64,000 nucleotides of DNA, taken from positions 36,794,321 to 36,858,320 of the forward strand of contig NC_134851.1 in assembly GCF_965363235.1 (NCBI RefSeq). Direction: 5' to 3'. The DNA comes from Mytilus galloprovincialis (Eukaryota; Mollusca; Bivalvia; Mytilida; Mytilidae). Positions 13,611 to 38,599 of the stretch are shown in pieces. Under the pieces are notes generated by a model. That model had not been told where the DNA came from, ran no database searches, and saw only the letters and a list, made by a program, of their open reading frames with translations. A program made the position numbers and the translations under genes. The stretch's first letter is position 1, and the number at the start of each line of letters is the position of its first letter.

Positions 13611-13733
13611 CCCGATGTCATTTGGGTTAATTGAGACATCAACTATGCAGTACTGGAGCAAATGACATCCATGTACACGGAAAGCGTGAATCGGAACATG
13701 GTGATGAATAATAAACTTTCGGTGATATATAAA
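13611..13733 (+). promoter_or_regulatory. promoter of peptide gene 1 (conserved block and TATA box)
   Basis: The TATA box TATATAAA is at 13726-13733, about 76 bp before the ATG. A block beginning CCCGATGTCATTTGGGTTAA (13611) and continuing TTGAGACATCAACTA lies 115 bp upstream of TATA. GATGAATAATA lies in between. All three elements recur in the same order before the other three paralogues. Confidence 0.75.
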
Positions 13734-13808
13734 GCCTACCCAAAGATCAATTGACACCAAAATTAAATATCTTCTTCTGTTCAACAAGCCACTAACTATT
13801 TCGCTAAC

Positions 13809-14109
13809 ATGTTGAAAAATTTAACCACTGTCGTTGTTGTGCTGAGTGCTTCACTTATGCTGTCGTCTGCTTTACCATATGGCTTTCCTAACTTCCGATC
13901 ATCCTATCGTGGAGGCTATGGATTTGGTGATATTGGCGGAACTTACAGCAGATTTCCAGGTTTTGGAGGTGCTTATTCAGCTTTTCCAGCATACGGCGGT
14001 ATACAACATCCACACAATACAATAAATTACCACCGTCATGTAACGCCATACTCATATGGAGGTAGAGGATTCCTAAATAACTTTCTTAGTGGGTCAACAT
14101 TACCTTCAA
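13809..14109 (+). CDS. secreted Gly/Tyr/Phe/His-rich peptide 1, exon 1
   Basis: I do not recognise the family. The start at 13809 (AACATG) opens a signal peptide, MLKNLTTVVVVLSASLMLSSA, with likely cleavage after residue 21. The mature chain has no Cys, about 20% Gly and about 20% Tyr plus Phe, one Asp and no Glu, so it is basic. Landmarks are YRGGYGFGDIGGTY (near residues 33-46), the repeat-like PGFGGAYSAFPAYGG, a His cluster HPHNTINYHRH, and PYSYGGRGFLNN. The donor A/GTAAGT follows 14109, so the ORF beyond it is intron read-through. With exon 2 at 14497-14531 the protein has 111 residues. Shell matrix, byssal or cationic host-defence roles fit the composition, but none is shown. Confidence 0.88.
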
Positions 14110-14496
14110 GTAAGTACCTTATAACTTTATAAATGGTATGTCAAGGATTTAAAAAGAATTCAAACCAAACTTGAAAGTTCTTTTCATTTCTTTTAAAAGT
14201 ACAGGAAAATTATGTAGACCGACAATAACAAAGAGGATGCGACATACTGAAGAAGAAAGCTGCATTTATATTTCTGATGGATTGGGTTTATTATATGGAA
14301 AATAGTTTTAAATACCAACACACAAAAAAACACATAAAATTAAAAGGAAACGACAGAAATAAAATTGGACACAATATTTTTATATTATTGATTTATATGC
14401 ACACGCACTGAGATTTTTATTAAGTCATTTATATAATACTCTGATGACTTAAATATTATGGAATATAGTTGTTATTATATTTTTCTTGTTTTTCAG

Positions 14497-14531
14497 TGGC
14501 TCTCGGATTTTTAGTCGGAAAAGCCTTATGA
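14497..14531 (+). CDS. peptide gene 1, exon 2 (35-nt hydrophobic tail)
   Basis: The acceptor CTTGTTTTTCAG precedes 14497. The split codon gives Met, then ALGFLVGKAL and TGA. The 35 bases are identical in gene 2 and nearly so in genes 3 and 4, which is the main evidence that this exon is real. The intron is 387 bp. Confidence 0.85.
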
Positions 14532-14608
14532 AAGATACCAAATACAGTTACTTGATATTGCCAAAGACTAGGAGACGTTTTTGTATACTTATAAACTAGA
14601 AGCTGTAA

Positions 14609-14614
14609 AATAAA
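14609..14614 (+). terminator. polyadenylation signal, peptide gene 1
   Basis: AATAAA lies 78 bases after the stop. It is conserved at the equivalent place in gene 2 (19700-19705). Confidence 0.65.
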
Positions 14615-14624
14615 ATGTCTGTAT

Positions 14625-14760
14625 TGTTCAAACATTGTTCATGTTATTTTCAATATAATTAAATTGTATGCAACTGTCATACAAGTGAAAGGTTCCGCTA
14701 GCTATAGAATCATGTTTAATCAACCGTTTTCTACATTGCAATGATTTTTTTAACGATGAA
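14625..14760 (+). repeat. R4 interspersed repeat, internally deleted
   Basis: R4 is recognised by CAACTGTCATACAAGTGA.AGGTT, GCTAGCTATA, and AATC.ACC.TTTTCTACAT. Compared with the gene 2 counterpart at 19725-20000, the part after TTTTCTACAT is missing here. Confidence 0.6.
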
Positions 14761-15289
14761 GACTTCTTTTTTTATTATTCCACTGTAAACGAAAGAGATG
14801 TCACAACGTAAAAACCTAGAAACATGAAATAAACGACCAAGCAAAAAAGCCATAAGAAAACAGAGTAATACGAAGTAATTGAATAAGTCGAACATAAGAA
14901 GAAAATGATAAAAAAAAACTCAGATTGATTACGCGTAGCTAGCAAACTTACAATTTGTGTTTTATCTCAATAGAATAATGATTTGTTTATGTTTACGATT
15001 CCGATGTTAGAAATTACCGATTTGTCTTCAGATTAATAGCAATCTCAGCTTTGTCCAATCTGCATGTAGAAATCAACACATAGTAAAAGGTTAAATAAAA
15101 AAATCAGAGGATACCGAACGAACAACTCTCCCTTAAAGACCAAATGACGCAAACGTTGACAACTTAAGGTCCCCGTTTTATCCAACTTTAATTGATGCCT
15201 CGTTTGTTAATACGAAACTGACAGATTGAAATTATCAATGTGTCCTGAGGCTACTAATCTCAGATGTCTAAGCACAAGGTACAAATTGA

Positions 15290-15900
15290 TCAACTAGCAC
15301 AAATTAAAAGGTTGAATATAAAAATAAGAGTTGTGGTAGCACAGCTCCCCAACAACAACGAAATGACGAAGAGGTTAACAACAACAATTATCTAAGTCCT
15401 AATTCCCTACCCCATAGCAAACTATAAAGGACCCCAAAATGGCAAAAATAAAACAACTGAAACGACAACAAACCACATCTACTGGGTTACAGGTTCTTGA
15501 CTTGGGAGAGACACATACCAACATAGACGGTGTTGTGGCTTCCAGTCGCTCCCTTGGTTTGGGACAATGGTGTAACAGTACAATATAAAAACAAAATTTC
15601 AAAATCAGATGAACGGGGTCAACTCATCAGATCGTTACGAAACACAGAAACGGATGGCGTTAAACATGTTTATGGGTACCAACGGACCTCCCCTGATCTT
15701 GGACAATGGTGTAACAGTATCAAATACAGATGAAAGGTTTAAACTCGTCAGGTCGATAAAAAAAGACAAAAACACTAGCGACACAAAGAACTGATTCGAG
15801 AGTTCTTGTTCCGAAACTTTGTTCAAAGTTAATTACAATGAGAAAAATCATGTATCTAAGACTAAAATATCAATCAACACGTATCAAATGTATTTAGTGT
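15290..15900 (+). repeat. R3 interspersed repeat, copy 1
   Basis: R3 is a composite mussel repeat marked by ATTGCCAATGAGACAACTC, ACAGGCTCCTGACTTGGGAC, AATGGTGTAACAGTA and TCATCAGAT. This copy and 20530-21130 sit at the same place in the duplicated block, so the insertion predates that duplication. The overlapping small ORFs at 15399-15826 are repeat translations. Confidence 0.65.
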
Positions 15901-16335: not shown

Positions 16336-16339
16336 ACGT

Positions 16340-16800: not shown

Positions 16801-16834
16801 TTGAATGCATGTATTACATCTTTGAAATAAAAAA

Positions 16835-17065
16835 ATCCTGGTTTTATAGCTAGCTAAACCTCTCATTTGTGTGACAGTCGTATCAAATTCCAAAAATTAT
16901 TGACAACATACGGTGAACAGAAAAAACACACATAATAGGTACAAATGTCACAAAAAGGGTACGGAAGTCAAATTCTGAACTCCGTAGAAAATTCAAAATG
17001 AAAGTCTCTAATCAAATGCCGAAATCAAAACCTCAAACACATCAAAAGAATGGATAACAACTGCT
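16835..17065 (-). repeat. R4 repeat, reverse copy
   Basis: Reverse complement of R4: TTTTATAGCTAGCTAAACCT, CTCATTTGTGTGACAGTCG, AATAGGTACAAATGTCAC, AAAGTC.CTAATCAAATG and CACATCAAA.GAATGG. It is a close relative of 23640-23835. Confidence 0.65.
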
Positions 17066-17094
17066 ATATTCCTGACTTAGTACAGGCATTTTAT

Positions 17095-17250
17095 TATGTA
17101 GAAATTGTTTAAAAAAACCTGGTTTTCAAGCTAGCTAAACCTCTCACTTGTATGACAATCCCATCTAATTCCATTATATTGACAACGATGTGTGAACAAA
17201 ACAAACAGATATAATAGGTTAACATGTCCAAAATAGGGGCACAACATTCA
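17095..17250 (-). repeat. R4 repeat, second reverse copy
   Basis: A partial R4 copy follows the previous one directly. It has GCTAGCTAAACCTCTCACTT, TATGACAATC and ATATAATAGGT. Confidence 0.6.
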
Positions 17251-17459
17251 ACATTGTGTTAAAATCTTATTCAGTATAAACAAAAATGTAAGAAAGCAGC
17301 ACAAATTCAGTAGAAGCAATTAATATTCATAAAGACAAAAGAACACTATAACACGTTACTAAGATGACAAACAACGCCATTACTCAGAATCCATACCTCA
17401 AGTCGATCGTGTATTTTTGTGAAGTTAATACGGTATATTCGCAAGAAGGTCTTGGTACA

Positions 17460-18480
17460 TTAAGATGATCTTATTTAGATTGCAGACCTTCCGTTTTGAA
17501 TTTCCTCTGAGCTCAGAATTTTTTGTCATTTTACTTTTTACCCTATACCATTTTACAAACATTCATCTTTTTTATGAAAAAAAATGTTTAATATTACAAA
17601 TTATCCATCCCACAAAAAAAAAAAACGACAACCCCCAGCATATCACAGGTAAACTTCAGAAACAATAACATTGCAAAATTTGACATTTTTCAAATCGTTT
17701 CAACTAAGAACTAAGATAAAAGTTGCCTGAGGTAGGGGTAAATTAATTACGAAGAAATGTATATTAATAACAAAATATAAATCGGCGGTTAATGGTTACA
17801 AACGATAAGGAGGTCTTTCATTTTTGTTAATGTGCTTTTTTTATATGCCTATTTGAGGTTCTTTGTTTTTTGTCTTTGTATTTGTTTGTTTTATGGTAAT
17901 TAAGATTAAGATAGTTGACTGCTGCACCTCAATTTTTGACATTTTTACCTATTAAGTATGTTTCGTTTGTTCACACATCGTTGTCAATATACTATAATTT
18001 CATGGCGACTGTCAAACAAATGAGAGGTTTAGCTAGCTATATTAAACCTGGTTCAATCCACCATATTTTAAGACAATGTCTGTAAAAATCACCACTATGA
18101 CAGTTGTAATAGATTTGTTTGATCTGTTTAAGATTGTGATTTTGCCATTTGATTAGAAACTCTCTGTTTTTAATTTTCCTTGCAGTTCGGTATTTTTGTT
18201 ATTTTACTTTATATGTATATGTGCACTATTGTAATGCTAAAAGATTGGCATATTTAATATTATAAATATATATATCATGAAAACTCAATGCCGTGTTAAT
18301 AGTTGAATATATGAAATGAAAATAACGAATCTGGGCGACGGAAAACCACGATTAGTCAATTCATTTCCCATAATTTGTCCATATTCTGTATATGACCACA
18401 GTCATAACATGTATTGGAACTATATATACATGACACTGTCACACATATGCACAAAATACCCTAAAGCGTGAGTACATTCA
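17460..18480 (+). repeat. duplication block B, copy 1 (upstream of peptide gene 2)
   Basis: It matches 25090-26100 in order: TGCAGAC.TTCCGTTTTGAAT, ATCGGCGGTTAATGGTTACA, ATTAAGATTAAGATAGTTGA, an embedded R4 (17940-18235) and AACGAATCTGGGCGACGGAA. The similarity runs on through the promoter and exon 1 of genes 2 and 3, so gene 3 and its upstream kilobase derive from the same ancestor as gene 2. Confidence 0.8.
17940..18235 (+). repeat. R4 repeat inside block B
   Basis: It has GACTGTCAAACAAATGAGAG, GTTTAGCTAGCTAT, AATCCACCAT, GATTTTGCCATTTGATTAG and TTTGTTATTTTAC in R4 order. The counterpart is 25570-25830. Confidence 0.65.
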
Positions 18481-18697
18481 TAATGTAGACAAAGGACGCA
18501 TTAGTATTTTCTCGTTTGAATTTGTATTATTTAATTCTTCATAATAGTCAAACTTATAGTAAATCCTTATACTTCATTATCACCTGTTTAGATTCAGTAA
18601 TTCTTTAATTAATGTACATATTCGTCAATTGAAAAACATAAGAGTTACATATATATCAGAAATTATTACGTTTGCCTCAAGCTATACTGCTGTCATA

Positions 18698-18820
18698 CCC
18701 GATGTCATTTGGGCTAATTGAGACATCAACTATCCAGTACTGTGTTAAATGACGTCCATGTAAACGGTAACGCAATCGGAAACATAGTGATGAATAATAT
18801 ACATTTAGATGATATATAAA
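18698..18820 (+). promoter_or_regulatory. promoter of peptide gene 2
   Basis: CCCGATGTCATTTGGGCTAA starts at 18698 and TATATAAA is at 18813-18820, 115 bp apart as in gene 1. GATGAATAATATA lies between them. The antisense ORF at 18677-18874 reflects this conservation and is not a gene. Confidence 0.75.
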
Positions 18821-18895
18821 GCCTACCCAAACATCAATTGACATCAAAGTTAAATATCTTCTCCTGTTTAACAAACCTCTGAAATTTAAGCTAAT

Positions 18896-19196
18896 ATGTC
18901 TACAAATTTCATATATGTCTTGGTTGTTTTGAGCGCTTCACTCATGATATCGTCTGCTTTACCGCATGGCTTTCCTAACTTCCGACCATCCTATCGTGGC
19001 GGCTATGGATTTGGTGATATTGGCGGCACCTACAACAGGTTTCCAGGTTTTGGAGGTGCTTATTCAGCTTTTCCGGCGTACAGCGGAATACACCAACCAC
19101 ACAATACAGTAAATTACCACCGTCATGTGACACCGTACTCATACGGAGGTAGAGGTTTCCTGAATAACTTCTTCAGTGGGTCAACATTACCTTCGA
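18896..19196 (+). CDS. secreted Gly/Tyr/Phe/His-rich peptide 2, exon 1
   Basis: The paralogue of gene 1 has the signal peptide MSTNFIYVLVVLSASLMISS followed by A, and the mature chain begins LPHGFPNFRPSYRGGYGFGD. Differences from gene 1 include a Ser in the AYSGI segment, HQPHNTVNYHRH in the His cluster and NNFFSGS near the junction. It is cysteine-free and basic. The A/GTAAGT donor follows 19196. With exon 2 (19583-19617) it encodes 111 residues. The start has A at -3, and the signal peptide supports it. The family and function are not recognised. Confidence 0.88.
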
Positions 19197-19582
19197 GTAA
19201 GTAACTTACAGTTTATAAATGGTATGTCAAGGATTAAAGATTTCATACCAAACCTTAAAAGTTTTTTTCATTCCGTTTAAAAGTTCTGGAAAAATATGTT
19301 GGCCGACAATGAAAAAAAGGTTGCGGCATACTGAAGAAGAAAAACCATTTATATTTCTGATTGATATTTGTTTATCGAATGGAGAATAGTTTTAAAATAC
19401 CAACACAGAAAAAACACATGAAATTGAAAGGAAACGACAGAAATAAAATTGGACACAATATTTTTAATTACCGATTTCCATACACACGCACTGAGATTTT
19501 TAATAAAGGTATTTATAGAATATACTTTGATGTCTTTAAGTTTCTGGAATATAAATATTAATATATTTTTCTTCTTTTTCAG

Positions 19583-19617
19583 TGGCTCTCGGATTTTTAG
19601 TCGGAAAAGCCTTATGA
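19583..19617 (+). CDS. peptide gene 2, exon 2 (hydrophobic tail)
   Basis: The acceptor TCTTTTTCAG precedes 19583. The exon encodes the rest of the split Met codon, then ALGFLVGKAL and TGA. It is identical over 35 bases to gene 1. The polyadenylation signal AATAAA is at 19700-19705. Confidence 0.85.
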
Positions 19618-19699
19618 AAGAAACCAAAGACAGTTACTTTATGTTGCCAAAGACTATACTAGGAGACGTGTTTGTATATTCATAAACTAGAATTTGTAA

Positions 19700-19705
19700 A
19701 ATAAA
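19700..19705 (+). terminator. polyadenylation signal, peptide gene 2
   Basis: AATAAA lies 83 bases after the stop, in the same context as in gene 1. Confidence 0.65.
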
Positions 19706-19724
19706 ATGTCTGTTTTGTTGACAC

Positions 19725-20000
19725 ATTGTTCATGTTATTTCAATATAATTGAATTTTATGCAACTGTCATACAAGTGAGAGGTTCCGCTAGCTATAGAAC
19801 CATGTGTAATCAACCGTTTTCTACATAAGGAAATTACTGTACCAAGCTAGGAATAGGACAATTGTTTCCATTTGTTTGATGTATTTGAGCTATTAATTTT
19901 GGCCATTTGATCAGGGACTTTCCGTTTTTAATTTTCCTTGAAGTTCGGTATATCTGTTATTTTTCTTTTTACATTACAATATTGCAATGATTTTTTTTTA
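19725..20000 (+). repeat. R4 repeat directly after peptide gene 2
   Basis: A fuller R4 copy: GCAACTGTCATACAAGTGAG, GCTAGCTATAGAACCA, AATCAACCGTTTTCTACAT, CAAGCTAGGAATA and GACTTTCCGTTTTTAATTTT. The equivalent site of gene 1 carries the internally deleted version. Confidence 0.65.
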
Positions 20001-20529
20001 ACGATGGAGACTTCTTTTTTACTATTTCAATAACCAAGATTGTAAAAGAAAAAGTGGTCAGAACGTAAAAAACTAGAAACATAAAATAAACGACCAAGCC
20101 AAAAAAGCCATAAGAAAACAAAGTAATACAAAGTGTTTGAATAAGTCGAACATAAGAAGAAAAATATCACAAAAATACCCCAACAGATTGCATGAATCTA
20201 CCAAACTTAAAGTTTGTGTTCAATCTTATTAATCTTATGATTTGTCTATGTATAGGATACTGTTAGAAATTACCGATTTGTCCTCAGATTAATAGTAATC
20301 TCAGCTTTGTTCAAGCTGCATGTAGCAATTAACGCATAGTAAAAGGTTAAAATCAGAGTATACCGAATGAACAACTCTTTCTTAAAGACAACTTTAGGTT
20401 CCTGTTTTTTCCTACATTAATTGATGCCTCGTTTGTTTATACGAAACTGACAGATTTTGAAATGATCAATTTGTCCTCAAGCTACTAATCTCAGATGGCT
20501 AAGCACCAGGTACAAATTGATCAATTAAC

Positions 20530-21130
20530 ACAAATTAACAGGTTAAATATAAAAATAAGAGTTGTTGTATGATTGCTAATGAGACAGCATTCCAACAAGG
20601 ATGACATGACGTAAAAGTTACCAATAATAGTTATGTAAGCCATTAGACAATTAGCAAACCCATACCCAATAGCAAGCCATAAAAGCCCCTTTAATGAGAA
20701 ATATAAAACAATTCAAACGACAACTATCGACATCCACTGAATTACAGGCTCTGACGGTGTTATACATGTATGTGGCTACCAGTCGCTCCCTCGGCTTGGG
20801 AAAATGGTATAACAGTACAATATAAAAACAAAATGTCAAAATCAAGTGAAAGGGTTCAACTAATCAGATCGTTACAAAACACAAAAAAACTGATGGCGTT
20901 AAACATGTTTGTGGGTAGCAACGGATCTTGGACAATGGTGTAACAGTATAAAATACAGATGAAAGATTTAACCTCGTCAGGTCGATAAAAAAAAACAAAA
21001 CACAAGCGACACAAAGAACTGATCCGAGAGTTCTTGTTCTGAAACTTTGTTCAAAGCCAATTACAATTAGAAAAAGCATGTACATGTATCTATGACTAAA
21101 ATATCAATCTATACGTAACACATGTATTTA
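20530..21130 (+). repeat. R3 repeat, copy 2
   Basis: Counterpart of 15290-15900. It retains GATTGCTAATGAGACAGCAT, TTACAGGCTCTGACGG and ATGGTGTAACAGTAT. Small ORFs on either strand are repeat translations. Confidence 0.65.
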
Positions 21131-21589
21131 GTGTAAAGACGTCATTTAAAGTTAGAAAAAAATGACTTATTTTAAATTTATTATGTCCCTATACATGCGA
21201 AAACATGTTTGCAGTCACCCAACCCCATCCCCTATACATACGAAAACATGTTTGCAGTCATTTAACCCCATCCCCTATACATACGAAAACATAGTTATCA
21301 ACAGAGGGTAGAATTGTGATTATACCGAAGAATATAATATTTAAAGATTTAACTACATTATAAGACTGGGAACATTTTATAATACGTTTAATTAAAATTA
21401 CGATAAGATTACCAGAATCGTATCTAAATTTACTATATCGGTAAAAATCACCACGAAAATTAGAATATGCAATTTCGTTTGTAAGAAGTTGTTTTTACAG
21501 GTACAGCCAAACTTCCAAAGCAAATCTTTGTATCTATGATAGAATTAAGTCAAGGTTTTACGTAATTAGCGCTAACCAAATCCTTGACA

Positions 21590-22090
21590 TATGAGTTTAT
21601 CATTAATACAATTGAGGATGGAAATGGCAAATGTGTCAAAGAGACAATTATCTAACCAAATAGCAGAAAACAGCCGAAGGCCACCAATTGGCTTTCAACC
21701 CAGCGAGAAAATCCAGTTCCCGAAGGCGTTCTTCAGCAACTTAAAACTATGTGTATAAGTTCAATGAAATTGGACGTCGCGCCAAACTAAAAAAACATAT
21801 AAATGAACTAAAATAATGAAAAAATATATACAGGACTTACAAAGACCAGAGGTTCCTGACTTGGGACAGACACAAACAATGTGGCTCAGTTTACCATGTT
21901 TTTATGAGATATGAGTATAATTAACAAACATACTGCAATACGCACAATCAAATTCAGATTTGAAAAAAAAATCCGAGTGCGATTTCAGTTTAGTTAAAAG
22001 AAAAAGATCAATGATACACAAATTAACAAGTAACTGTCGTGCCAGCTCCAGGCCCCAATTAAACTGGTTGAATGCATATATTACATCATT
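21590..22090 (+). repeat. R5 repeat, copy 2
   Basis: Counterpart of 16340-16800. It has the AATGTGTCAAAGAGACAA, AGCAGAAAACAGCCGAAGG and CCAGAGGTTCCTGACTTGGG landmarks. Confidence 0.65.
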
Positions 22091-22274
22091 GAAACCAAAC
22101 TTCACTACATACTAATGCATAATGAGCGAGTTTTGATACATAAATACAATAAGATGGCACCAAAAACAATTCCGTCTAAAAAAGTAAAGTTTAAACCAGG
22201 GACCGGAATATCTCCCTTAATAACGTAAATCCTTGTGTACAGTTTCCCGTTCAAAACTGAAGTATCTCAATGCC

Positions 22275-22480
22275 ACATGTGAAGCAGGATCTGCTTATCC
22301 TTCCGAAGCATCTGAGATCCCCTCCGTTTTTGGTAAGGTTCGTGTTGCTCAGTCTTTAGTCTTTGGTGTTTTATGTGTACTATTTTTTGTCTGTTTGTCT
22401 TTATGATTTTTAGCCATGGCGTTGTCAGTTTAGTTTCGATTTTAAAATTTTGACTGTTCCTCTAGTATCTTTCGCTCCTC
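22275..22480 (-). repeat. R2 repeat, reverse copy
   Basis: Reverse complement of R2: CCACATGTGAAGCAGGATCT, GGTTCGTGTTGCTCAGTC, TTTTAGCCATGGCGTTGTCA and ATCTTTCGCTCCTC. Confidence 0.7.
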
Positions 22481-22619
22481 TTTAAAAAAAATTCTGACGT
22501 CAGACACACAAATCAATGAATGTGTTTGTAGATAGATGTTTTTGTGTTGTGTTAAATTGTCCCTTTTAAAATTGTTATACGATGATGAATGATGTACCCA
22601 TATTTTGACTATTTTATTT

Positions 22620-22870
22620 ATTGTGTCTATTTTGTTTACGCATCAATGTAAATATAACGGAATTTGACGAGACTGTCATCAAAGTGAGAGGGTTAGCGCT
22701 ATAAAACCAGGTTTAATCCACCATTTTCTACATTTGAAAATGCCAGTACCAAGTCAGGAATATGACAGTTCTTGTCCATTCGGTTTTGTTATTTGATTTT
22801 GCCATGTCATTATGGACTTTCCGAATTGATTTTCCTCTAAGTTCAGTATTTTTGAGATCTTATTTTAAAA
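22620..22870 (+). repeat. R4 repeat, forward copy with intact motifs
   Basis: GACTGTCATCAAAGTGAGAG, AACCAGGTTTAATCCACCAT, AAGTCAGGAATATGACAGTT and GACTTTCCGAATTGATTTTC are all present. The ORF at 22762-23025 is repeat translation. From 22870 to 23440 nothing else is recognised. Confidence 0.7.
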
Positions 22871-23449
22871 GAAAAAGGATCATGCTGTTTAGATTTTATT
22901 CATATAAAGTAAGTGCTAGAGATGAAATTTGGCCCTATGTAGTTATAGAAGGGGTCTGTTTTGAGTTTTCATATCAGTTTAATTCATATAAACAAAGGAA
23001 CAAGCTTAAGTCTTCTATACAATGAATTAATAAACTTTATTAATCGACACAAAACAACCAATGAATACACTGAAGACACAAACAGTAGGTCTGAGCGTGT
23101 ACTGAGAGAAACGTTATTCCATATTATAAGTATGTATATCTAGAATATTTCTTTTCATTTCAGAAGAAGGCTTTATATGAGTTGAGTCTAACAGATAGAC
23201 AACACGTTTTGTTAAACGACCATTTGATTAAAATGATTGTGAAAAGGAAACTCTAAAAATTAGGAGTTGCCATCGAGACAGCTATCCACTTAAGTTCATA
23301 TGAAATAGATGTTAGCAATTATATGCAACAGTACTACCTTCAACGATGAGAAAAACTTATACCGTATAGTTGGCTATGAAATTAACCGACATAAACACTA
23401 TGAAATAATTCAATTTGACAAAACAAATATCATAAGTAAAAAACCAATA

Positions 23450-23835
23450 ACTGTACAAAGTAAAATTACCAAAAACAATTAACACTGAGAAAATTCAAAA
23501 CGGAAGGTTCCTTTTCAAACATGTCCAATGGCAAAACAAAAGCTCAGAAACATCAAACGAATAAAAAACTACTGTTATATTCTCGAATTTGTTTAGGCAT
23601 TTTCTTAATATGCAGAAAACGTCGGATCAAACCTGGTTTTATAGCTAGCTAAACGTCTCACTTGTGTGACAGTTGAATCAAATTCTAATATATTGACAAC
23701 AATTTGTGAACAGAACAAACACACATAATAGGTACAAATATCACAAAAAGGGTACTAAAGTCAAATTCCGTGGAAGTTCAAAAAGGAAAGTCCCTAATCA
23801 GATGACAAAATCCAAAGCTCAAACACATCAAACGA
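23450..23835 (-). repeat. R4 repeat, two adjoining reverse copies
   Basis: Reverse landmarks appear twice. CAAAGCTCAAACACATCAAA near 23815 and GCTCAGAAACATCAAACGAA near 23545 are equivalent positions of successive copies. A GCTAGCTAAACGTCTCACTT segment lies at about 23643. Confidence 0.65.
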
Positions 23836-24081
23836 ATGGATAACAACTATGGTAAAATAAATTTGTTCGTTATCAAAAGTACCAGGATTATAATTTTATC
23901 GTAATCTTTAACGGTTACGAAAGAGTAAGGGACATAAGAAAAGCAGTGTTTGGGGAGATATCTCTTACAACCTAAAGTATTTGGTTGAGGAGTGTTTGTT
24001 TGGAAAACGTGTAAATTGTACGATATCATATCCAAATATATAAGCGACATCTTATAAAACAATAACGCAACGCAAGAATAA

Positions 24082-24649
24082 AAGGAGTAGGTCCCATTTT
24101 GACCTCCAATTTCAGGTCCATCTGATGAAAGATTTTTTACATTTTTTAAACACCTAAGTGGCTACTTCAGTCAATTCAATTAGTTTGTGAGAATGATTTT
24201 AACTGAATTAGTCATTTCAGACGCTCGTATTCAAGCTCAAATATGAAAAATCTATCAAATATGTCATTATACATGTATATCAATTTTCCGATAGTTTTTG
24301 TCAAAAAAGAAAATTGCCGCAGCCGTGTTCACCCTTAACCTTTATTTATATTATGTATCATCATCAAATACAACTTACATTTAAATATTAATAATGAACA
24401 CGAATGCGGCCACTTCCATTTAAGACGAAAACAATCTAGAATTTAACTCAAATACTGAAATTGTGAACATTTCAGTAATTTAGCATGACTTAATGAAACT
24501 AGTAACCGATATATATGTCAAAATGCCCATATTTATGTAGCAAAAGTATTATACTTTCCAATAAATAGCTTAAAGATTACATTATAACAATTGAAAAAAA
24601 ACTGATATATTTTGGGCCCAAAAAGGAGTCTTACTGAACCTACTCCCTT
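24082..24649. mobile_element. possible non-autonomous element with AAGG(G)AGTAGGT ends
   Basis: AAAGGAGTAGGTCCC at the left and GAACCTACTCCCTT at the right are inverted relatives. The span has no ORF. The terminal repeats are short and the call is tentative. From 24650 to 25085 I see nothing except a second AT-rich stretch. Confidence 0.4.
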
Positions 24650-25569
24650 GGCGGACAAAAAAAATAATAATCAGAACAAAATCAATAGGTCTTTCCACAG
24701 AAAAGTGGAAAAACCTAATAAGCTTGTGATTAACAACCACTGAATGACATATTAACCGTCAATAATACGTTATATATAATATATACGTAATAAATATATA
24801 AAAACCATACATGTGGACTTGTTCATTTCTCACTTTAGAAACACGTATTATCAACTTATTTTCAAAATAACTAACTGGGATATTTTCGTCACATTTAAAT
24901 TTTTTTAATTTAAATAATGTTGATATAAGTTGAAGGGTTTGGACCTTAGATCACAGAAAAACCCTTATTGGAAGTTTTATTTTATGAAATAATTACAAAA
25001 ATATATGAAATAGAAGAAGTAGGCCAGAATTTCCTTGTTGTAAAGATAGGAAACACATAATTATATATTACAAACATCATACAAACCAGTGCATCCTTTT
25101 GATTGCAGACTTTCCGTTTTGAATTTTCCTCTGAGTTAAGTATTTTTGTCATTTTACTTTTTACCCTGTACCATTTTACAAACATTTATCCTTTTTTAGA
25201 TAGTATTACAAATTATATATCCCACAAAAAATGATTGAACAGAAACACACATTTAAACCACAACTCCAGCATATGACAGGTAAACTTCAGAAACAATAAC
25301 AGAAAAATTTAACCTTTTTCAAATCGTTTCAACCAAGAACTAAGGTAAAAGTTGGCTGAGGTAGGGGTAAATTGATTACGAAAAAAATGTATATTTATAA
25401 CAAAATATAAATCGGCGGTTAATGGTTACAGACGATTAGGAAGTCTTTTAATTTTGGTAATGTGCTTTTTTTATATGCCTATTTGAGGTTCTTTGTTATA
25501 TATTTGTTTGTTTTATGGTAATTAAGATTAAGATAGTTGACTAGTGCACCTCAATTTTTGACATTTTTA

Positions 25570-25830
25570 CCTATTAAGTATGTTTTTTTTTGTTCACACA
25601 TCGGTGTAAATATTCTATAATTTCATGGCGACTGTCAAACAAATGAGAGGTTTAGCTAGCTATAAAACCTGGTTTAATTCACCATGTTTTAAGAAAATTT
25701 CTGTAAAATCAGGACTATGACAGTTGTAATAGATTCGTTTGATATGTTTAAGCTTTTGATTTTGCCATTTGATTAGAAACTCTCTGTTTTGAATTTCCTT
25801 GCTTTTTGGTATTTTTGTTATTTTACTTTA
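25570..25830 (+). repeat. R4 repeat inside block B copy 2
   Basis: Counterpart of 17940-18235, with GACTGTCAAACAAATGAGAG and ATTTTGCCATTTGATTAGAA. Confidence 0.65.
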
Positions 25831-26274
25831 TATGTATATGTGCACTATTGTAATGCTAAAAGATTGGCATATTTGATATTATAAAAATATGTATCATGAA
25901 CACTCACTGCCGTGTTAATAGTTGAATATATGAAATGGAAATAACGAATCTGGGCGACGGAAATCTACGATTAGTCAATTCATTTCCCATAATTTGTCCA
26001 TATTGTATTGGAACTAGATATGCATGACACAGTCACACATATGTACAAAATATCCTAAAACGTATGTACATTCATGACGTAGACATATAATAGATAAGTG
26101 TATTCCATGTTTCAATTGGTATTATTTAATTTTCAAAACTTAGAATAAATCTTCCCACTTTATTATGACCAGTTATATAATTATCTAATCGTTAAAATCG
26201 TCTATTGACAAAGTATAAAAGTTACATATATATCAGAAATTATTACATGTGCCTCAAGCTATAATGCTGTCATA

Positions 26275-26402
26275 CCCGATATCATGTGGGTTAATTGAAA
26301 CATCAACTATCCAGTACGGTAATGTAGTAAATGACCATCGTCGACACAGTAACGGAATCGGAAATATAGTGATGAATAATATGCGTTTAGATGATATATA
26401 AA
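26275..26402 (+). promoter_or_regulatory. promoter of peptide gene 3
   Basis: CCCGATATCATGTGGGTTAA starts at 26275 and TATATAAA is at 26395-26402, 120 bp apart. GATGAATAATATG lies between. The block is slightly more diverged than in genes 1 and 2 but all parts are present. Confidence 0.7.
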
Positions 26403-26477
26403 GCCTTTCAAAATGCTTACTGGCAACAAAGTTAAATATCTTCTCTTGTTTAACAAACCACTTTTTTTTTCGCAAAC

Positions 26478-26777
26478 ATGTTTACAAATTTCATCACTGT
26501 CTTTGTTGTTCTCAGCGCTTCAATCATGCTGTCGTCTGCTTTACCATACGGCTTTCCTAACTTCCGATCATCCTATCGTGGCGGCTATGGATTTGGTGAT
26601 ATTGGTGGCACCTACAGCAGATTTCCAGGTTTTGGTGGTGCTTATTCAGCTTTTCCAGCATACGGCGGAATACATCATCCACACAATACAGTAAATTACC
26701 ACCGTCATGTTATACCGTACTCATATGGAGGTAGAGGATTCCTGAATAACCTTCTTAGTGGGTCAACATTACCTTAA
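26478..26777 (+). CDS. secreted Gly/Tyr/Phe/His-rich peptide 3, tail-less
   Basis: It is a paralogue of genes 1, 2 and 4 with the signal peptide MFTNFITVFVVLSASIMLSS followed by A. The mature chain keeps YRGGYGFGDIGGTY, PGFGGAYSAFPAYGG, HHPHNTVNYHRHV and GGRGFLNNLLSGSTLP. It then stops at TAA 26775-26777, where genes 1 and 2 have a Ser codon (TCA or TCG). The splice donor AAG/GTAAGT follows at once (intron from 26779), and an intact exon 2 persists at 28693-28727. The predicted product has 99 residues and lacks the hydrophobic tail. It may be a functional short form or the first step of decay. The stop lies about one base before the exon junction, so nonsense-mediated decay is not expected. 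Confidence 0.85.
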   Translation: MFTNFITVFVVLSASIMLSSALPYGFPNFRSSYRGGYGFGDIGGTYSRFPGFGGAYSAFPAYGGIHHPHNTVNYHRHVIPYSYGGRGFLNNLLSGSTLP

Positions 26778-26828
26778 GGTAAGTAACTAACATTTTTAGA
26801 AATGTCATATCAAGGATTTAAAACAATT

Positions 26829-26985
26829 AATGAATGGCTATTATTTATTTTGAATTTATTGAACCATAAAACTAATTTTTGACTCTTCACATTGAATAAT
26901 CAGCGAAGCGGATTATGTAAAATGTGAAGAGTCAAAAATTAGTTGTATGGTTCAATAAAATCAAAATAAATTATTGCCATTCATT
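26829..26985. mobile_element. large palindromic MITE in the gene 3 intron
   Basis: The left arm starts AATGAATGGCTATTATTTAT and the right arm ends in TTATTGCCATTCATT. The arms of about 75 bp are roughly 90% identical when inverted and include AACTAATTTTTGACTCTTCA. They surround a short AGCGAAGCG loop. It would form a long hairpin in RNA. It sits at the point where the gene 3 intron stops matching genes 1 and 2. Confidence 0.8.
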
Positions 26986-26989
26986 ATAA

Positions 26990-28500
26990 ATAAATATCTA
27001 TCAAAAATAAGGCTCAAAGAACTTTTTATATTAATTATATTAAAACTATAACAACGTACACACAAGTTGGCGTATGAATATACAACGTCAGAGTGGGCGT
27101 GTCGCCATAAAAATTGACAACATTGAAAATAAAACTAATAATTTTAACCGATCAGAAGACAGTAAATACACCAAATTTATTTATTATTCAACTGAAAAAA
27201 AAAACAACTTTCAAAGGTTCTTTCATTCTTTTGTTAAATGGAAGCATGCTAGTTTGTAATAAAAAGTAGGTGGGGACATTGTGCAGGAAAACATTTCTAG
27301 TATTTAGTATTGTGCAGTTTGCAGTTTCAAATGAAATATTTTTAATGCATATGATTATTCTTTATCGAACAAGTTCTAAATTTTTTGAAGATAACAAATA
27401 AAAGAATTTATTTTTAGTAGAATTCGATGAAAATGAATGAAATCGAAAATCTTAAAGTTTAACGCAAAAATATAAATACTGCATATTAAAAATCTTGAAT
27501 ATTTTCTTAAACCAGATAAATCATTTTGATACCAAGCAATCTATATATATAATACTAGTAGTCTATTTGTCACCACTTCTGTAAATGGCGAATGGCATGT
27601 TATAAGATATCCATCTTAAGTTACTTCCCTTTGGACGGACATTTGTATTGACAATTAGACCTAGCAGAAATACCATATTCATCAGTGCGTTATGTGAACA
27701 ATCTTTATGATTTTGCAATATTATTTTCTTCCTTCTAATCTGTTGTTAAATTCAAATATTTTGATATCAATATTATCAATAGTGTTTTTTATTAGTAATT
27801 GATGAAAAAATCTATAATAAATTTTTTAATTAATAATAATTTGTATGTGCAGCAGCCAAATTTATCCGGTATGCCACATGACAACAAATGACGAAGATAA
27901 ATAATCTATATTCACAGTGTGTAACTACATAATCAAATAAGTAAACAGACTTTTATATATTTTTTCCAAATGAGTTTTTATTTCTGTTTTGTCATTAACT
28001 TATATTTCATGCTTTTCTTCTTCATAAAATCGACTTATTAGGTAATTTACAGAAGATAAAACATGTAGGATTGACATAAACTTTATAGTTATTAAAGCTT
28101 TTAAGAAATATAACTATAATAGATTTTATCAAACAGTGTCATTCAATTCTTAAACAATGCTTTTCAAGTTTGAACTTCGGCTGTTACGTAACGGTAAAAT
28201 CCATATATTTGAAACAGAAAGTTATATTTTTTTTTTTATTATTTTTTGTCTGTTTTAATATTAAAAATAAGCTAGCATTTATTTTATTGATATATCAAAC
28301 AACTACATAGTCCTGTGAATAATAACAAAAGGTGCTTTTTGGCGGTAAAAAATTAGTGACGAATTTTGCAGAAGAAAAATCAACAATTTTGTAGAATTTT
28401 ATTATTTGAAAATTATTCAACAACTATCTGAAATCAACGTTTTAAAATCAAGCACTACTTTTTGAATTTATTGTTAAAATGAATGCCATGAAAAAATTAC
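26990..28500. other. gene 3 intron expansion, nothing recognised
   Basis: The gene 3 intron is 1,914 bp against about 386 bp in genes 1 and 2. The extra sequence from the palindrome to about 28500 is AT-rich. I see no gene and no second copy in this window. From about 28530 (AAAAGGAAACGACAACTATA) the ancestral intron end resumes. Confidence 0.5.
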
Positions 28501-28692
28501 CTATAAAAAGAAGTCATAATACAAACAAAACAATTAAAAATATAAAAGGAAACGACAACTATAGAAAAGTAACAGATGTTTTTACTACACGGATTAAAAT
28601 TTATATTGTTGAGTAATTATACAATGTATAAGATGTATTGTTTTACTTTTAGATTATGGTTAATAATCGTTAAATATGTTCTTGTTTTTCAG

Positions 28693-28727
28693 TTGCTCTC
28701 TGGTTTTTAGTCGGAAAAGCCTTATGA
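28693..28727 (+). pseudogene. unused exon 2 of peptide gene 3
   Basis: The acceptor CTTGTTTTTCAG is intact. In the phase used by the family the 35 bases would read ALWFLVGKAL and TGA, with one Trp for Gly relative to the others. Because exon 1 already stops, this exon can only be 3' UTR. Its preservation suggests that the stop arose recently. Confidence 0.7.
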
Positions 28728-28831
28728 AGACACCAAAGACAGTTACGTGATATAAACAAAGAGAAGAAGACGGTTTTTAAAATTGATAATGCAGAAGTCA
28801 AGAATGGAAAATTATTATGAAGTATATGATA

Positions 28832-29175
28832 AATAAAGGCAACAGTAGTATACCGCTGTTCAAACGCATAAATCCATGGACAAAAAACAAAATCGGGGTA
28901 ACAAACTAAAACTGATGGAAACGCATAAATATAAGAGGAGAACAACGACACAACACTACAATGTAACTAACACACACAGAAACGGACCAAGCATCAGACA
29001 AAATCCCACGAGAATAACAAATATAACATCAAAACCAAATACATGAATTTGGGATAGACAAGTACCGTGACACGTCTTATCGCAATGTCAATTTACACTC
29101 AAAAATAAGAGAAAACAAACGACGCAACGTTAAATTGTAACACACACAGAAACGAACTATAATATAACAAATGAT
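28832..29175 (+). repeat. interspersed repeat downstream of gene 3
   Basis: Landmarks are AACAGTAGTATACCGCTGTT, AAACGCATAAATATAAGAGG, CCGTGACACGTCTTATCGCA, AATTTACACTCAAAAATAAG and ACACACACAGAAACGAACTA. Its first part recurs at 37520-37630. It is a known mussel-type repeat by recollection. The reverse ORF at 28670-28951 is spurious. Confidence 0.6.
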
Positions 29176-29179
29176 GCTT

Positions 29180-29645
29180 TAAATCAATATTGTCTTAATT
29201 TTGCTCAAATGTACAAATAATTAAAACTGCTGCATTATGGGACAGTCGTTTGTTCACACGAGACTGGGGTATGGGTAGTCTAGAAGTAATTTTCGTAGAC
29301 GGAAGTTGAAATTATGGTCGGATACATGAATCTTTTAAACCAACTGTACATATTAAAACATGACCCTTTCAAAAGTAAGATTACAATTTAAAATGAAACG
29401 TAGAAAATACTTTGATATACAAATGCAATTCCAAAAATATTTTTTTTATCAAAACTTTCTTTGTGCTATTCTAATTACCTAGTTTATGAAATATGAAAAA
29501 AACCAAAAAATGAAATATGAAAAAAAAAAATAATATGAAATCAGAATTTAAAAAAAAAAAAATGATATACATAAATAAAAATATGAAAACAACTCAAAGA
29601 TATAGTTGATTTTTAAAATTCAATTCATATGATTTGACGCCTTTA
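29180..29645. other. intergenic, A-rich low-complexity segment
   Basis: Near 29490-29600 an AAATATGAAAAAAA motif repeats several times. There is no gene. Confidence 0.5.
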
Positions 29646-29649
29646 AGGT

Positions 29650-29870
29650 AATGGAAGAGGGGCGAAAGATACCAGAGGAACAGTTAAACTCATAAATCGA
29701 AAATAAACTTACAATGCCATGGCAAAAAAAGAAAAAGACAAACATTCTCAATTTTATTTAAATTAAAGTACACAAGACACAACACAGACATTAAACATGT
29801 TAAAACATAAGACTAAGCAACACGAACCCACCCAAAAACTAGGGGTGACTACATGTACTCCGGACTTTTG
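29650..29870 (+). repeat. R2 repeat, forward copy
   Basis: GAAAGATACCAGAGGAACAG, TCATAAATCGAAAATAAAC, CAATGCCATGGCAAAAAA, ACTAAGCAACACGAACCC and AACTAGGGGTGA are in R2 order. Confidence 0.75.
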
Positions 29871-30169
29871 AAAAGCGGTATATTTCCGTTGCCTTTATTT
29901 ACCTGTTAAAATACATATATATAATAAGCAGTATGTATTCATTAACACGAAGATTAAAGTATGAATAAATTAACACATTCTAAATTCAGGCTTGTATATT
30001 TTCAAGATGAAGAAGTCTCCACAAAAGCTGAATTTAATCCACTACAAAAACATCCGGAGTTGGAACTTGATTCTGATAAAAATAAAATGCTGAAGTTCAT
30101 ATTTATTTAAATGTTCAAGGGCTAGCCACAAACATTTGTGGCTTATAGCACAAAAATGATCGTAAGCTA

Positions 30170-30420
30170 TACTGAAAAAGTAAAATAACAAAAATACCGA
30201 ATTTGAAAGAAAAATCGAATCGGAGAGTCCCTTATCAAATTGCAATATCAAAAGCTTAAACACTTCAAACGAATGGACAATAACTGTCTTATTTCTGATT
30301 TGATACAGACATTTCCATATTGTCAAAATGGTGGATTAAACCAGGTTTTACAGTAAGCTTAACACCTCACTTGTATCCTTTGTATGACATAACTTATGAT
30401 AACATTTACTCGTTTTTTGT
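30170..30420 (-). repeat. R4 repeat, reverse copy
   Basis: It has CAAAAATACCGAATTTGAAA, GAGTCCCTTATCAAATTGCA, CACTTCAAACGAATGGA, GTGGATTAAACCAGGTTTTA and ACACCTCACTTGTAT. The ORF at 30042-30326 is repeat translation. Confidence 0.65.
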
Positions 30421-35165: not shown

Positions 35166-35169
35166 TGGT

Positions 35170-36465
35170 ATACAAAATGCCAAGGAATTCTGGTAACAAT
35201 GTTAATAACGAAATTCAATGCAGAATACAGTAAAACAAAGAATAACCCTCGAAAAGTGATTGTTTTATGTTAATGAAGAAAACGAACATGCATTTGTAGG
35301 ATAAACTCAGGTGAAATTAAAAAGAAAAAATATAGAATTTAAATTGATACTTTAAGTGGGAAGAGCATCCGTTATAGAACATGATAAGCTAAAAATATGG
35401 ATCTTTGATTTTTTGTATAACGGAGGGTAAAGGCTGACGCGGTCTTTTATCTAATATTCATATTGGAATTATTTGGGTCTTCAATCAAAAGAAAAGAAAT
35501 CATAAATGTGCTAAATTTTGGTGAATGAAGATTTCAAAGCTATTGAAGTCTTGTATGAAAAAAAATAATTGGTGTTATGAGGTAAAACATTTTCCCCTGG
35601 AGTGTAGGAGCATCTTACACAAATTCCTAAAACTCACCTAATTTAAACATTAAACCAAAACAAGTCTGAACAATCCTACACCAATCCTGAATTATTAATT
35701 TTTTGAAATCTTTGAATTGCAGTCTAATACTGATCCATGAACAGACTTAAGAGATGTAAATATTTTTAGATATATATTTAAACAAGCTTATAAGTTCAGA
35801 AAATGTGACGATGATTAAGATTTTGTTATGTAATCCATGTATGACCATAGTCTTACAGGGGGAAGAATTATGCATAACACTTTCACGTATACGTGTTCCG
35901 AAGTCCCTGAAGCGATGTACTTTTATTACGTAAGAGAAGAACGGACTAATTTTTGTGTTTTTAATTTTCGATTAATATCTAAAGACTTGAAATTGAAATT
36001 TATATTCATAATTGCCGGCTGTTAGAAATAAAAACGAAAATGTTTTCACTTTTCTTTTAAGAATAGAGATACATACTTGTTATCTAACATATAGCTATAA
36101 GAGGTCATAATTTTACTTTCTTTGCTATGTGCCAGCTTGTTGGTATCATTTTATTAGAAAAAAAGTTAAAATATCACATTATTTTGCGAAATGCAAAAAT
36201 GATATTTCAAATGCGTGTTGTTAAAGATATGATAAATTCGATACAGAGATGTTATTCACTAATATTTTGTTTTAAGAGTAATTCTTGTTAAAACAGATGG
36301 CATACATATATATTGTATCATGAGTTTTGTTATTGCAATTTTTTAAAGTGTTTTTTTTCCTGTCTTAGGTTGTTACTAGGTTTAATAGGTCTATTTTCCT
36401 TGACAAATCCAATAGGTAACCATGTGTTAATGTAAGGTATTAATGTCCTTAGAAGATAATGCTGT
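35170..36465. other. upstream region of peptide gene 4
   Basis: Mostly unique AT-rich sequence. Around 35835-35890 a TATGACCATAGTC and TGCATAACACTTTCAC pair resembles the distal upstream segment of genes 1 to 3. The ORF at 35837-36025 overlaps this and is not supported. Confidence 0.45.
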
Positions 36466-36469
36466 AATA

Positions 36470-36594
36470 CCCGGTGTCATTCAGGTTAATTGAGACATCA
36501 AAAGTGGTGACCAGTGGTAAGAGTGACGTTCGTGTAAAACGGAAACGGAATCGGAACAAACCGATGAATAATAAACGTTCCCATGATATATAAA
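36470..36594 (+). promoter_or_regulatory. promoter of peptide gene 4
   Basis: CCCGGTGTCATTCAGGTTAA starts at 36470 and TATATAAA is at 36587-36594, 117 bp apart. GATGAATAATAAACGTTC lies between them. The architecture is conserved although the flanking DNA is not. Confidence 0.75.
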
Positions 36595-36666
36595 GCCTCT
36601 CAAAATATCATTTGACACCAAAGTTTAATATCTCCTTGAATTGAAACCACTTACTATTCGGCTATA

Positions 36667-36964
36667 ATGTTGAAAAATTTTACGACTGCTTTTGTTTTAC
36701 TGAGCGCTTCACTAATGCTGTCGTCTGCTTTGCCGTTTGGCTTTAACAACTTCCGGTCCTACCGTGGCGGATATGGATTTGGGGATATTGGCGGTACTTA
36801 TAGAAATTTTCCAGGATTTGGAGGTGCTTATTCAGCTTTTCCAGCATACGGCGGAATACATCATCCACACAATACAGTAAACTATCATCGTCATGTGACG
36901 CCATATTCATATCGAGGCAGAGGTTTCATGAATAATCTCTTGAGTGGATCAACTTTGCCATCAC
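36667..36964 (+). CDS. secreted Gly/Tyr/Phe/His-rich peptide 4, exon 1
   Basis: The most diverged paralogue has the signal peptide MLKNFTTAFVLLSASLMLSS followed by A, and the mature start LPFGFNNFRSYRGGYGFGDI. It has one residue fewer than genes 1 and 2 (FRSYR against FRSSYR), NFPGFGG for RFPGFGG, HHPHNTVNYHRHV, and PYSYRGRGFMNN. It is cysteine-free and basic. The donor C/GTAAGT follows 36964; the ORF past it is intron. With exon 2 at 38495-38529 it encodes 110 residues. Many third-position differences with few amino-acid changes suggest selection on the peptide. Function is unknown. Confidence 0.88.
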
Positions 36965-37519
36965 GTAAGTCGTTTACAATTCTATCGTTGACAATTTTTT
37001 CCGAATTTAATTTTTTTTTTTAATTTGACTACAAAAGTTCTTATTATTTCACGATATTTTGAGTTCTAATGGAAGGTTGATTTAGAACCGTTGAGAAAGA
37101 TATCAGCATATATAGCTTGTTGCATCAAATATGTTGTATCTGGGTATACCTAGAAGAATATAAAAAAAAATATGACAACAAATTTCGTATTTTTTTATTA
37201 AGTTGATACTTAGTAGGTCAAAAAGTCAAACTCACACTCTCCTTTTTTGATCAATATCTGAACTTACACAACGTTTTTAGCATTGACGTGAGAAATTAAT
37301 TTCATTATTAATAATCCTGTAGAGAAGTGACCTGACCTTAAAATATATTTATTGTTGTTCATATACGATTGACATGATTTCATAAGTATTATTTTGCTAA
37401 CTTGTATTGTTACATTTTAAGGAACCATATATGGTAATTGTGTCATCCGTTAATTTCCGAACATGATTAATCATTCCAAGTCTAACTAAACTCTTTCGCT
37501 AAACACTGATGATACATAA

Positions 37520-37660
37520 TGACAACAGTGTATACCGATGTTCAATAGTCCCCAGTCGATAAAAGGAAACAAATACAGGTTACAAAATAAAACCGACGGA
37601 AACGCATAAACTATAAGAGGAAATCAAATGAACAATAAGGAACAAACACAGATCAAGATA
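37520..37660 (+). repeat. partial repeat in gene 4 intron (family of 28832-29175)
   Basis: It has CAACAGTGTATACCGATGTT, GACGGAAACGCATAAACTAT and AAGAGGAAATCAA, matching the first part of the repeat downstream of gene 3. Confidence 0.55.
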
Positions 37661-37919
37661 TATCTCGAAAACGATTTTATGCATATAAGTCTGTGTATGT
37701 TCCACCTGTTTTGAATTGCGGACACATGATGAGTTTGATGAAGAAAAATTCGCATCTGGTAAATAAGCCGTGAATCTTTGGTGTCGTGATCCTTGGTCAT
37801 TAAAATAATTGACAAAACAATAAAAGAAAGAACTTCTTAAAAACACAAACTGAGAAAAACCGTAATATGGAGAAGAAAAGAAATCAGACATCAGATTTTG
37901 CACTTACGATTTTAATAGT

Positions 37920-38346
37920 TTAATCAAAGGTACCAGGATTATTATTTAGTACGCCAGACGCCCGTTTCGTCTACAAAAGACTCATCAGTGACACTCATAT
38001 CAAAATATTTATAAAGCCAAACAAGTCAAAAGTTGAAGAGCATTGAGGATCCAAAATTCCAAAAAGTTGTTCCAAATACGGCTAAGGTAATCTATGCCTG
38101 GGATAAGAAAATCCTTAGTTTTTCGAAAAATTCAAAATTTGTAAACAGTTAATTTATAAAAATGACCAAATTATTGATATTCATGTCAACACCGAAGTGT
38201 TGACTACTTGGCTGGTGATACCCTCGGGGACGAAACGTCCACCAGCAGTGCCATCGACCCAGTGGTGTAAATAGTTATCAAAGGTACCAGGATTATAATT
38301 TCGTACGCCAGACGCGCGTTTTGTGTATATAAGACTCACACATAAT
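37920..38346 (+). repeat. R1 repeat: one full 354-bp unit plus a partial second
   Basis: TCAAAGGTACCAGGATTAT begins at 37924 and again at 38278, so the period is 354 bp. The full unit runs through CAGACGCCCGTTTCGTCTAC, AAGTTGAAGAGCATTGAGGA and GCTAAGGTAATCTATGCCTG. It then reaches TGATACCCTCGGGGACGAAA, CGTCCACCAGCAGTG and CCCAGTGGTGTAAATAGTTA. The second unit is truncated near 38346. It lies inside the gene 4 intron (1,530 bp). Confidence 0.75.
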
Positions 38347-38494
38347 ACACATTGAATATGGAAGTTAAACTTTATTATCCTTTGTACATACATATAAAAG
38401 TTCAAATTTATTTTCTTTGATTATTGGTGTTGTTTTGTTAACGTTTATATAATTACATACCCATTATAGGTTTTTTTATCTTTTTATTTTGTAG

Positions 38495-38529
38495 TTGCTC
38501 TTGGATTTTTAGTCGGAAAGGCATTATAG
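38495..38529 (+). CDS. peptide gene 4, exon 2 (hydrophobic tail)
   Basis: The acceptor TATTTTGTAG precedes 38495. The split codon gives Leu, then ALGFLVGKAL and TAG. Several third-position changes relative to genes 1 and 2 leave the ten residues unchanged, which is good evidence for coding. AATAAA at 38547-38552 may be the polyadenylation signal, although it is close to the stop. Confidence 0.85.
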
Positions 38530-38599
38530 CAAATACACAGTTTCTGAATAAAGCCAAAGACCAGGAATTAAGGAGTTAACAATGCATATTCATAAACAC

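Follow-up and report, generated by a model that had tools for sequence, protein, structure and literature searches.

What is encoded by four similar genes that lie one after another in the genome of Mytilus galloprovincialis, and do their products belong to a known family? We examined them in a 64,000-nt stretch of contig NC_134851.1 (the window, in whose positions the coordinates of all copies are given), where the array spans 13809-38529 and consists of four two-exon genes on the + strand. They form a conserved gene family, unnamed among the sources searched, which encodes short secreted peptides rich in Gly and aromatic residues. The best explanation, to which we give a probability of about 0.4, is that the array supplies an abundant and flexible secretion that would self-associate into a coating or gel; its expression, disorder, self-association and site of action are what we infer here.

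All four genes share the same architecture (Table 1). The introns are of the GT-AG type, and exon 1 coding lengths of 301, 301, 301 and 298 nt in copies 1-4 place each of them in phase 1. The distance from the start of the TATA box (TATATAAA) to the ATG is 83, 83, 83 and 80 bases, and AATAAA follows exon 2 in all four copies. With mRNA ends assumed at the TATATAAA box +30 and at AATAAA +20, the predicted mRNAs are 492, 497, 519 and 426 nt long. The spliced proteins comprise 111, 111, 99 and 110 aa and the mature chains 90, 90, 78 and 89 aa, with signal cleavage at SSA/LP, after A21, assumed by eye following the -3/-1 rule. None of the mature chains contains Cys. Their isoelectric points are 9.70-10.08, Gly makes up 18.9-20.5% and Phe plus Tyr 19.1-20.5%, and there are 4-5 His, 5-6 Arg, 0-1 Lys and one acidic residue per chain. 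The His residues form a group, HPHN..NYHRH, and the tryptic peptides of the chain include GGYGFGDIGGTYSR and HVTPYSYGGR. The original prediction, made from the letters of this stretch, had described same-strand reading frames with splice sites and TATA boxes that encode a secreted, cysteine-free, basic chain of 78-90 residues with about 20% Gly, about 20% aromatics and a His cluster; the gene models, computed compositions and isoelectric points agree with this description.

Exon 2 adds the tail ALGFLVGKAL, which is identical in copies 1, 2 and 4. Together with the constraint on the exact sequence, this tail would suit a secreted signalling peptide made from a longer precursor, which could end in an amidated ...GFLV if the precursor is cut at the conserved Lys. 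Such a role appears very improbable, as no dibasic site was seen by eye in the four mature chains, copy 3 is entirely without the tail, and four copies that have all kept a TATA box point to a product made in bulk. Processing at a single Lys with two residues after it, as in the tail, would moreover be unusual.

Purifying selection acts strongly on the mature chain and less so on the signal peptide. Ratios of non-synonymous to synonymous substitution rates (dN/dS) over the 78 mature exon-1 codons were 0.07-0.17 in all six pairs of copies, with a bootstrap fraction of 0.0 for dN>=dS (up to 500 resamples per pair), and thus far below 1 in the comparison among copies that the original prediction had proposed. 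Over the 21 signal-peptide codons the ratios were 0.24-0.95. For copies 1 and 2, mature dN was 0.046 versus a divergence (K) of 0.16 in the intron and 0.17 between the genes, both over gap-free aligned columns. Variable columns numbered 14 of 78 in the mature part and 10 of 21 in the signal, and aromatics were involved in 3 of these 14. Runs of 15 and of 14 residues are invariant in the mature part, and the only length change there is of one residue. The low mature dN/dS therefore supports a function of the protein sequence itself.

This distribution of constraint also bears on an antimicrobial role. Diversifying antimicrobial families usually combine a conserved signal with a variable mature part, which is the opposite of what we observed. 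The array might nevertheless encode a linear cationic precursor of an epithelial surface, similar in role to myticalins or to Gly/Tyr-rich antimicrobial peptides of invertebrates, that acts on membranes and is strengthened by His at acid pH. The chains are secreted, cysteine-free and encoded in tandem copies, and their net charge of 4.2-6.2 at pH 7 rises to 7.8-9.8 at pH 5.5. Myticalins are cysteine-free antimicrobial peptides of the Mytilus gill, described in the available text of PMC12294457 as Arg-rich or Pro-containing with a C-terminal extension; members of subfamily C average 31% Arg, with mature peptides of 17-33 aa. Besides being secreted, cysteine-free and cationic, they share two coding exons and a phase-1 intron with the array, intron 2 being in this phase in every myticalin gene (PMC12294457); an intron of this phase is common, and the likeness in it is hence weak. 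The array chains differ in that they are Arg-poor, with 5-6 Arg and 0-1 Lys per 78-90 residues, rich in Gly and aromatics, longer and conserved, and come in four copies as opposed to a hyperdiverse family (PMC12294457, as far as its text was available). They also carry no acidic stretch. With 80-83 bases between TATA box and ATG, the genes seem to have no need of the separate 5' non-coding exon known from myticalins and apparently lack one. An antimicrobial precursor is for these reasons rather unlikely.

Conservation was also found upstream of the genes. The roughly 230 bases 5' of the ATG, 5' untranslated region included, were 64-83% alike over the six pairs. In pairs with copy 4, the most divergent one, this region was 64-74% alike versus 47-52% at synonymous sites (p 0.0017, 0.040 and 0.015, uncorrected). 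Invariant promoter blocks of at least 6 bases were ATACCCG, TAATTGA, ACATCAA, GATGAATAATA, TGATATATAAAGCCT and AATATCT. Scanning with 11 consensuses returned TAATTG and TATA as the only sites common to all four promoters (column-shuffle fractions 0.009 and 0.004 of 2000, uncorrected), while CREB, E-box and Sox sites were not common to all four.

Searches of the 1.38-Gb assembly with DNA, proteins and patterns recovered these four loci and no further close relative; the counts are lower bounds, and since the reach of the searches was that of close relatives, distant ones may remain. Protein searches at E<=10 returned only the four loci. Two patterns of 35 bases each, with ambiguity codes drawn from the four copies and allowing <=3 mismatches, one from exon 2 and one over the ATACCCG, TAATTGA and ACATCAA blocks, each occurred at 4 places genome-wide, all promoter matches falling in these four loci, and the reversed control at 0. 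Longer relatives built from the motif GG(T/A)YS(R/A)FP(G/A)(F/Y) were not found in the genome: of 9 matches at E<=1, four were the array genes (E 9.8e-5 to 6.4e-4), and the remaining five had E 0.076-0.715. On prokaryote genome contigs, screened in case they carried stray mussel DNA, none of 193 pattern stretches was confirmed as a relative.

Profile libraries likewise offered no name. We searched Pfam with copies 1-4 (copies 2 and 3 with the exon-1 part), NCBIfam with copies 1 and 4, and PDB sequences with copy 1. At E<=10, Pfam and NCBIfam returned 0 families for copies 1 and 4, Pfam none for copy 2 and PDB none for copy 1, and the exon-1 part of copy 3 gave a chance-level match to HNH_5 alone (E 0.093, 13.1 bits versus a cut-off of 27.5). 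The array had been put forward as unassigned and as the best candidate in this stretch for an undescribed system; the first part holds in that no credible match was found in these libraries, while the second goes beyond the evidence. We are dealing with one small peptide gene family and not with a multi-component system.

A name might still exist in the literature on mussel digestive glands, where very high expression is described for numerous short, secreted peptides whose function is unknown (PMC4203926). One of them, vdg3, is a very abundant digestive-gland transcript of Mytilus or Mytilisepta with several variants or paralogues and unknown function (PMC4203926, PMC5549309, PMC2810337), for which a protein accession, ABB76764, is cited in PMC4133350. 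In the text available from PMC4203926, the 30 most expressed digestive-gland genes of M. galloprovincialis include vdg3 transcripts (501 and 531 bp), which occur in multiple variants. That the array is this developmentally regulated family would be compatible with a coating of the gut lining. The predicted mRNAs, with ends assumed as above, are near that size, four similar paralogues are present here, and Pfam gave no credible match; the likeness to vdg3 as portrayed in these sources is one of size (about 500 nt) and copy number, and weak (PMC4203926, PMC5549309). Other short transcripts of unknown function fall in the same size range, e.g. 486 and 531 bp, although these differ from the array family because the same source gives them four cysteines (PMC4203926). 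The name vdg3 has also been used in abalone, whelk and oyster (Haliotis, Rapana, Crassostrea), and the four promoters have none of the gut-type sites tried in common. We therefore consider identity with vdg3 unlikely.

How could the peptides act as an abundant secretion? Four copies may raise the dosage of what an epithelium or gland secretes in abundance. The secreted chain would stay flexible and could self-associate via contacts of Tyr or Phe with Arg and with Gly, and the His group might serve as a pH- or metal-sensitive switch. The product would then contribute to a coating, a gel or the matrix of granules, for instance in mucus, a gut lining or an adhesive secretion. Aromatics adjoin Gly, Ser or Pro in 15 of 18, 14 of 18 and 14 of 17 cases in copies 1, 2 and 4 (copy 3 was left out of this count). 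AlphaFold2 predicted no confident fold outside the signal for the exon-1 chains (mean predicted local distance difference test score 49.5, predicted template modelling score 0.22), with helices only at residues 2-20, the signal segment, and at 87-93 with low confidence. This prediction is consistent with disorder of the mature chain and is not proof of it. A Foldseek comparison of the low-confidence model with PDB gave no match, as expected, and is not counted as evidence.

Several observations weigh against a coating or gel of this kind. The low AlphaFold2 confidence does not establish disorder because the alignment consisted of four near-identical rows without exon 2. Aromatic residues were no more evenly spaced than in shuffled chains (960, 783 and 2464 of 5000 shuffles were equally even or more so for copies 1, 2 and 4), and the internal 10-mer self-match was reached by 70, 455 and 475 of 1000 shuffles of the same copies and is thus not above chance. 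With neither even aromatic spacing nor a standout repeat, the chain therefore lacks the features usually seen in proteins that phase-separate or in structural proteins built of repeats. Gly reached 16-17 per 80 residues, i.e. 20.0-21.2%, in copies 1, 2 and 4 (copy 3 has 16 Gly in 78 mature residues), which is under the threshold of 25% for silk-like proteins. The promoter was not above synonymous identity in the three pairs without copy 4 (p 0.15, 0.295 and 0.339), one of these pairs being less alike. None of the gut-type sites FOX (two forms), HNF1 half, HNF4, GATA and CDX was common to all four promoters, and the tissue can therefore not be read from the promoter with the sites tried. Finally, the long invariant stretches (15 and 14 residues) and the single length change fit a ligand that depends on its exact sequence no less well than they fit a bulk material. 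The motif GG(T/A)YS(R/A)FP(G/A)(F/Y), striking by eye as an internal repeat, was rejected as such given the 70 of 1000 shuffles that reached the self-match of copy 1.

The invariant stretches imply that the chain may also bind a specific partner or surface, beyond its bulk composition. In a tentative and somewhat doubtful formulation, the array would represent an undescribed, lineage-restricted mussel family of sequence-specific, His-switched Gly/aromatic peptides that coat a mucosal or adhesive surface and recognise one partner, spread in tandem with their own conserved promoter and distinct from named mussel families.

The history of the array could be traced from the extent of sequence shared between copies. 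Blocks across about 3.5 kb are common to copies 1 and 2, about 1.8 kb of flank plus gene to copies 2 and 3, and copy 4 shares only promoter and exons with the others. This gradation points to stepwise tandem segmental duplication. The upstream divergence of copies 2 and 3 was K 0.12 (gap-free aligned columns), and the intergenic block of copies 1 and 2 showed 78% identity by BLAST with gaps counted. As the mature dS of 0.36 between copies 1 and 2 exceeds the estimate from their flanks, recent gene conversion has probably not homogenised the exons of this pair. Over 16834-30376, the array spacers and the region around 30.2 kb contain a diverged repeat family of about 200-330 bp with about 69-84% identity in both orientations.

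All four paralogues of the original prediction are present, with one correction: copy 3 is shortened by an in-frame TAA at 26775-26777, at a position where the other copies have Ser. Because this last full codon 5' of the splice donor is a stop, copy 3 as assembled here has lost the conserved tail. Its exon 2 and acceptor are retained 3' of the stop, with a G-to-W difference relative to ALGFLVGKAL. According to the 50-nt rule an mRNA with a stop close to an exon junction is usually spared from decay, so that the copy 3 mRNA, with its stop ending 1 nt 5' of the junction, should escape decay. The enlarged intron of copy 3 holds a foldback element with arms of 66 nt that are 94% complementary and 27 nt apart. 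In the genome search 40 of 1115 candidates were scored, the copy 3 element included, and all 40 were 97-100% identical to that element and distributed over many contigs. Judged from these sequences, the element is a young, high-copy repeat resembling a miniature inverted-repeat transposable element.

Table 1. Features of the four gene copies, given as positions in the window.
Feature	Positions	Strand	Remarks
Copy 1 proximal promoter	13608..13733	+	conserved; ATACCCG...TAATTGA.ACATCAA block, GATGAATAATA block, TATATAAA at 13726-13733
Copy 1 exon 1, coding part	13809..14109	+	encodes signal peptide and most of mature chain
Copy 1 intron	14110..14496	+	GT-AG, phase 1, 387 nt
Copy 1 exon 2 coding end	14497..14531	+	...MALGFLVGKAL stop; AATAAA at 14609-14614
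Copy 2 exon 1, coding part	18896..19196	+	TATATAAA at 18813
Copy 2 intron	19197..19582	+	386 nt
Copy 2 exon 2 coding end	19583..19617	+	AATAAA at 19700
Copy 3 coding sequence	26478..26777	+	99 aa; exon 1 to 26778; TATATAAA at 26395
Copy 3 intron	26779..28692	+	1914 nt, enlarged; foldback element inside at ~26828-26986
Copy 3 exon 2	28693..28727	+	conserved, past the stop; frame reads VALWFLVGKAL
Copy 4 exon 1, coding part	36667..36964	+	one codon shorter; TATATAAA at 36587
Copy 4 intron	36965..38494	+	1530 nt
Copy 4 exon 2 coding end	38495..38529	+	...LALGFLVGKAL stop; AATAAA at 38547

Elsewhere in the window, two of the open reading frames on the + strand at 1615-8355 match TPR weakly, short of the Pfam cut-offs, and a 36-bp tandem repeat at 6531-6694 codes for Arg/Ser/Pro; these upstream frames may resemble the dynein-docking protein TTC25/ODAD4. 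Minus-strand frames at 56437-58946 have, to the eye, the appearance of reverse-transcriptase fragments from a long interspersed nuclear element (LINE); Pfam returned nothing at E<=0.01 for the two that were scanned. No Rfam family reached its gathering score in the 64 kb.

With complete gene models, four copies, a locus-specific 35-base promoter block and purifying selection, the array makes expression, localisation and biophysics directly testable. If the family is vdg3, a marker long used for the digestive gland now has a gene structure and a locus; if not, the array adds one more candidate to the biomaterials or mucosal peptides of mussels.

Among known structural systems, the byssus and the shell offer a further explanation, in which the array would encode a byssal or shell-matrix protein of foot, periostracum or mantle whose Tyr could become 3,4-dihydroxyphenylalanine (DOPA) and whose His could bind metal. 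The chains are secreted and basic and contain Gly, Tyr and His, and the same genome has a gene of the foot protein 1 (fp-1) type. This gene, which is presumably foot-protein-1-like, lies on another contig (G000:C4:52623400-52625499, loci L017 and L018), where a long open frame carries AKPSYPPTYK-type decapeptide repeats, a 60-aa stretch consisting of six repeats at 100% match. Such decapeptide repeats are typical of fp-1 and mark the genome as that of Mytilus. The array chains differ in that 10-mer self-matches within copies 1, 2 and 4 do not exceed chance. Silk-like structural proteins of shells, byssus and other materials, for which the available text of PMC4944945 sets a threshold of >=25% Gly per 80-residue window, resemble the array chains in being secreted, Gly-rich and, in the case of the chains, without a confident fold; the chains differ in their lower Gly content and in lacking a repeat beyond chance. 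The lysine-rich matrix proteins (KRMP) of pearl oysters, as presented in the abstract of PMC4498902, share a Gly/Tyr-rich segment, whereas the array chains have no Lys-rich basic domain and one Lys at most. Because of this scarcity of Lys, few DOPA-Lys neighbours could form. None of ten peptide strings was printed in the main text of the literature searched, a weak point since supplements, the usual site of proteome lists, were outside that search. Taken together, a byssal or shell-matrix protein appears quite unlikely.

The array chains further differ from the cysteine-stabilised antimicrobial peptides of mytilids, defensin, mytilin and myticin, in having 0 Cys in all four mature chains. A conserved cysteine array is characteristic of those three families. 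By description only, the mussel peptides resemble the caenacins and NLP-29-type epidermal peptides of nematodes, which are likewise short, secreted, rich in Gly and aromatic residues and encoded in a tandem array, and which are shorter and richer in Gly than the mussel chains.

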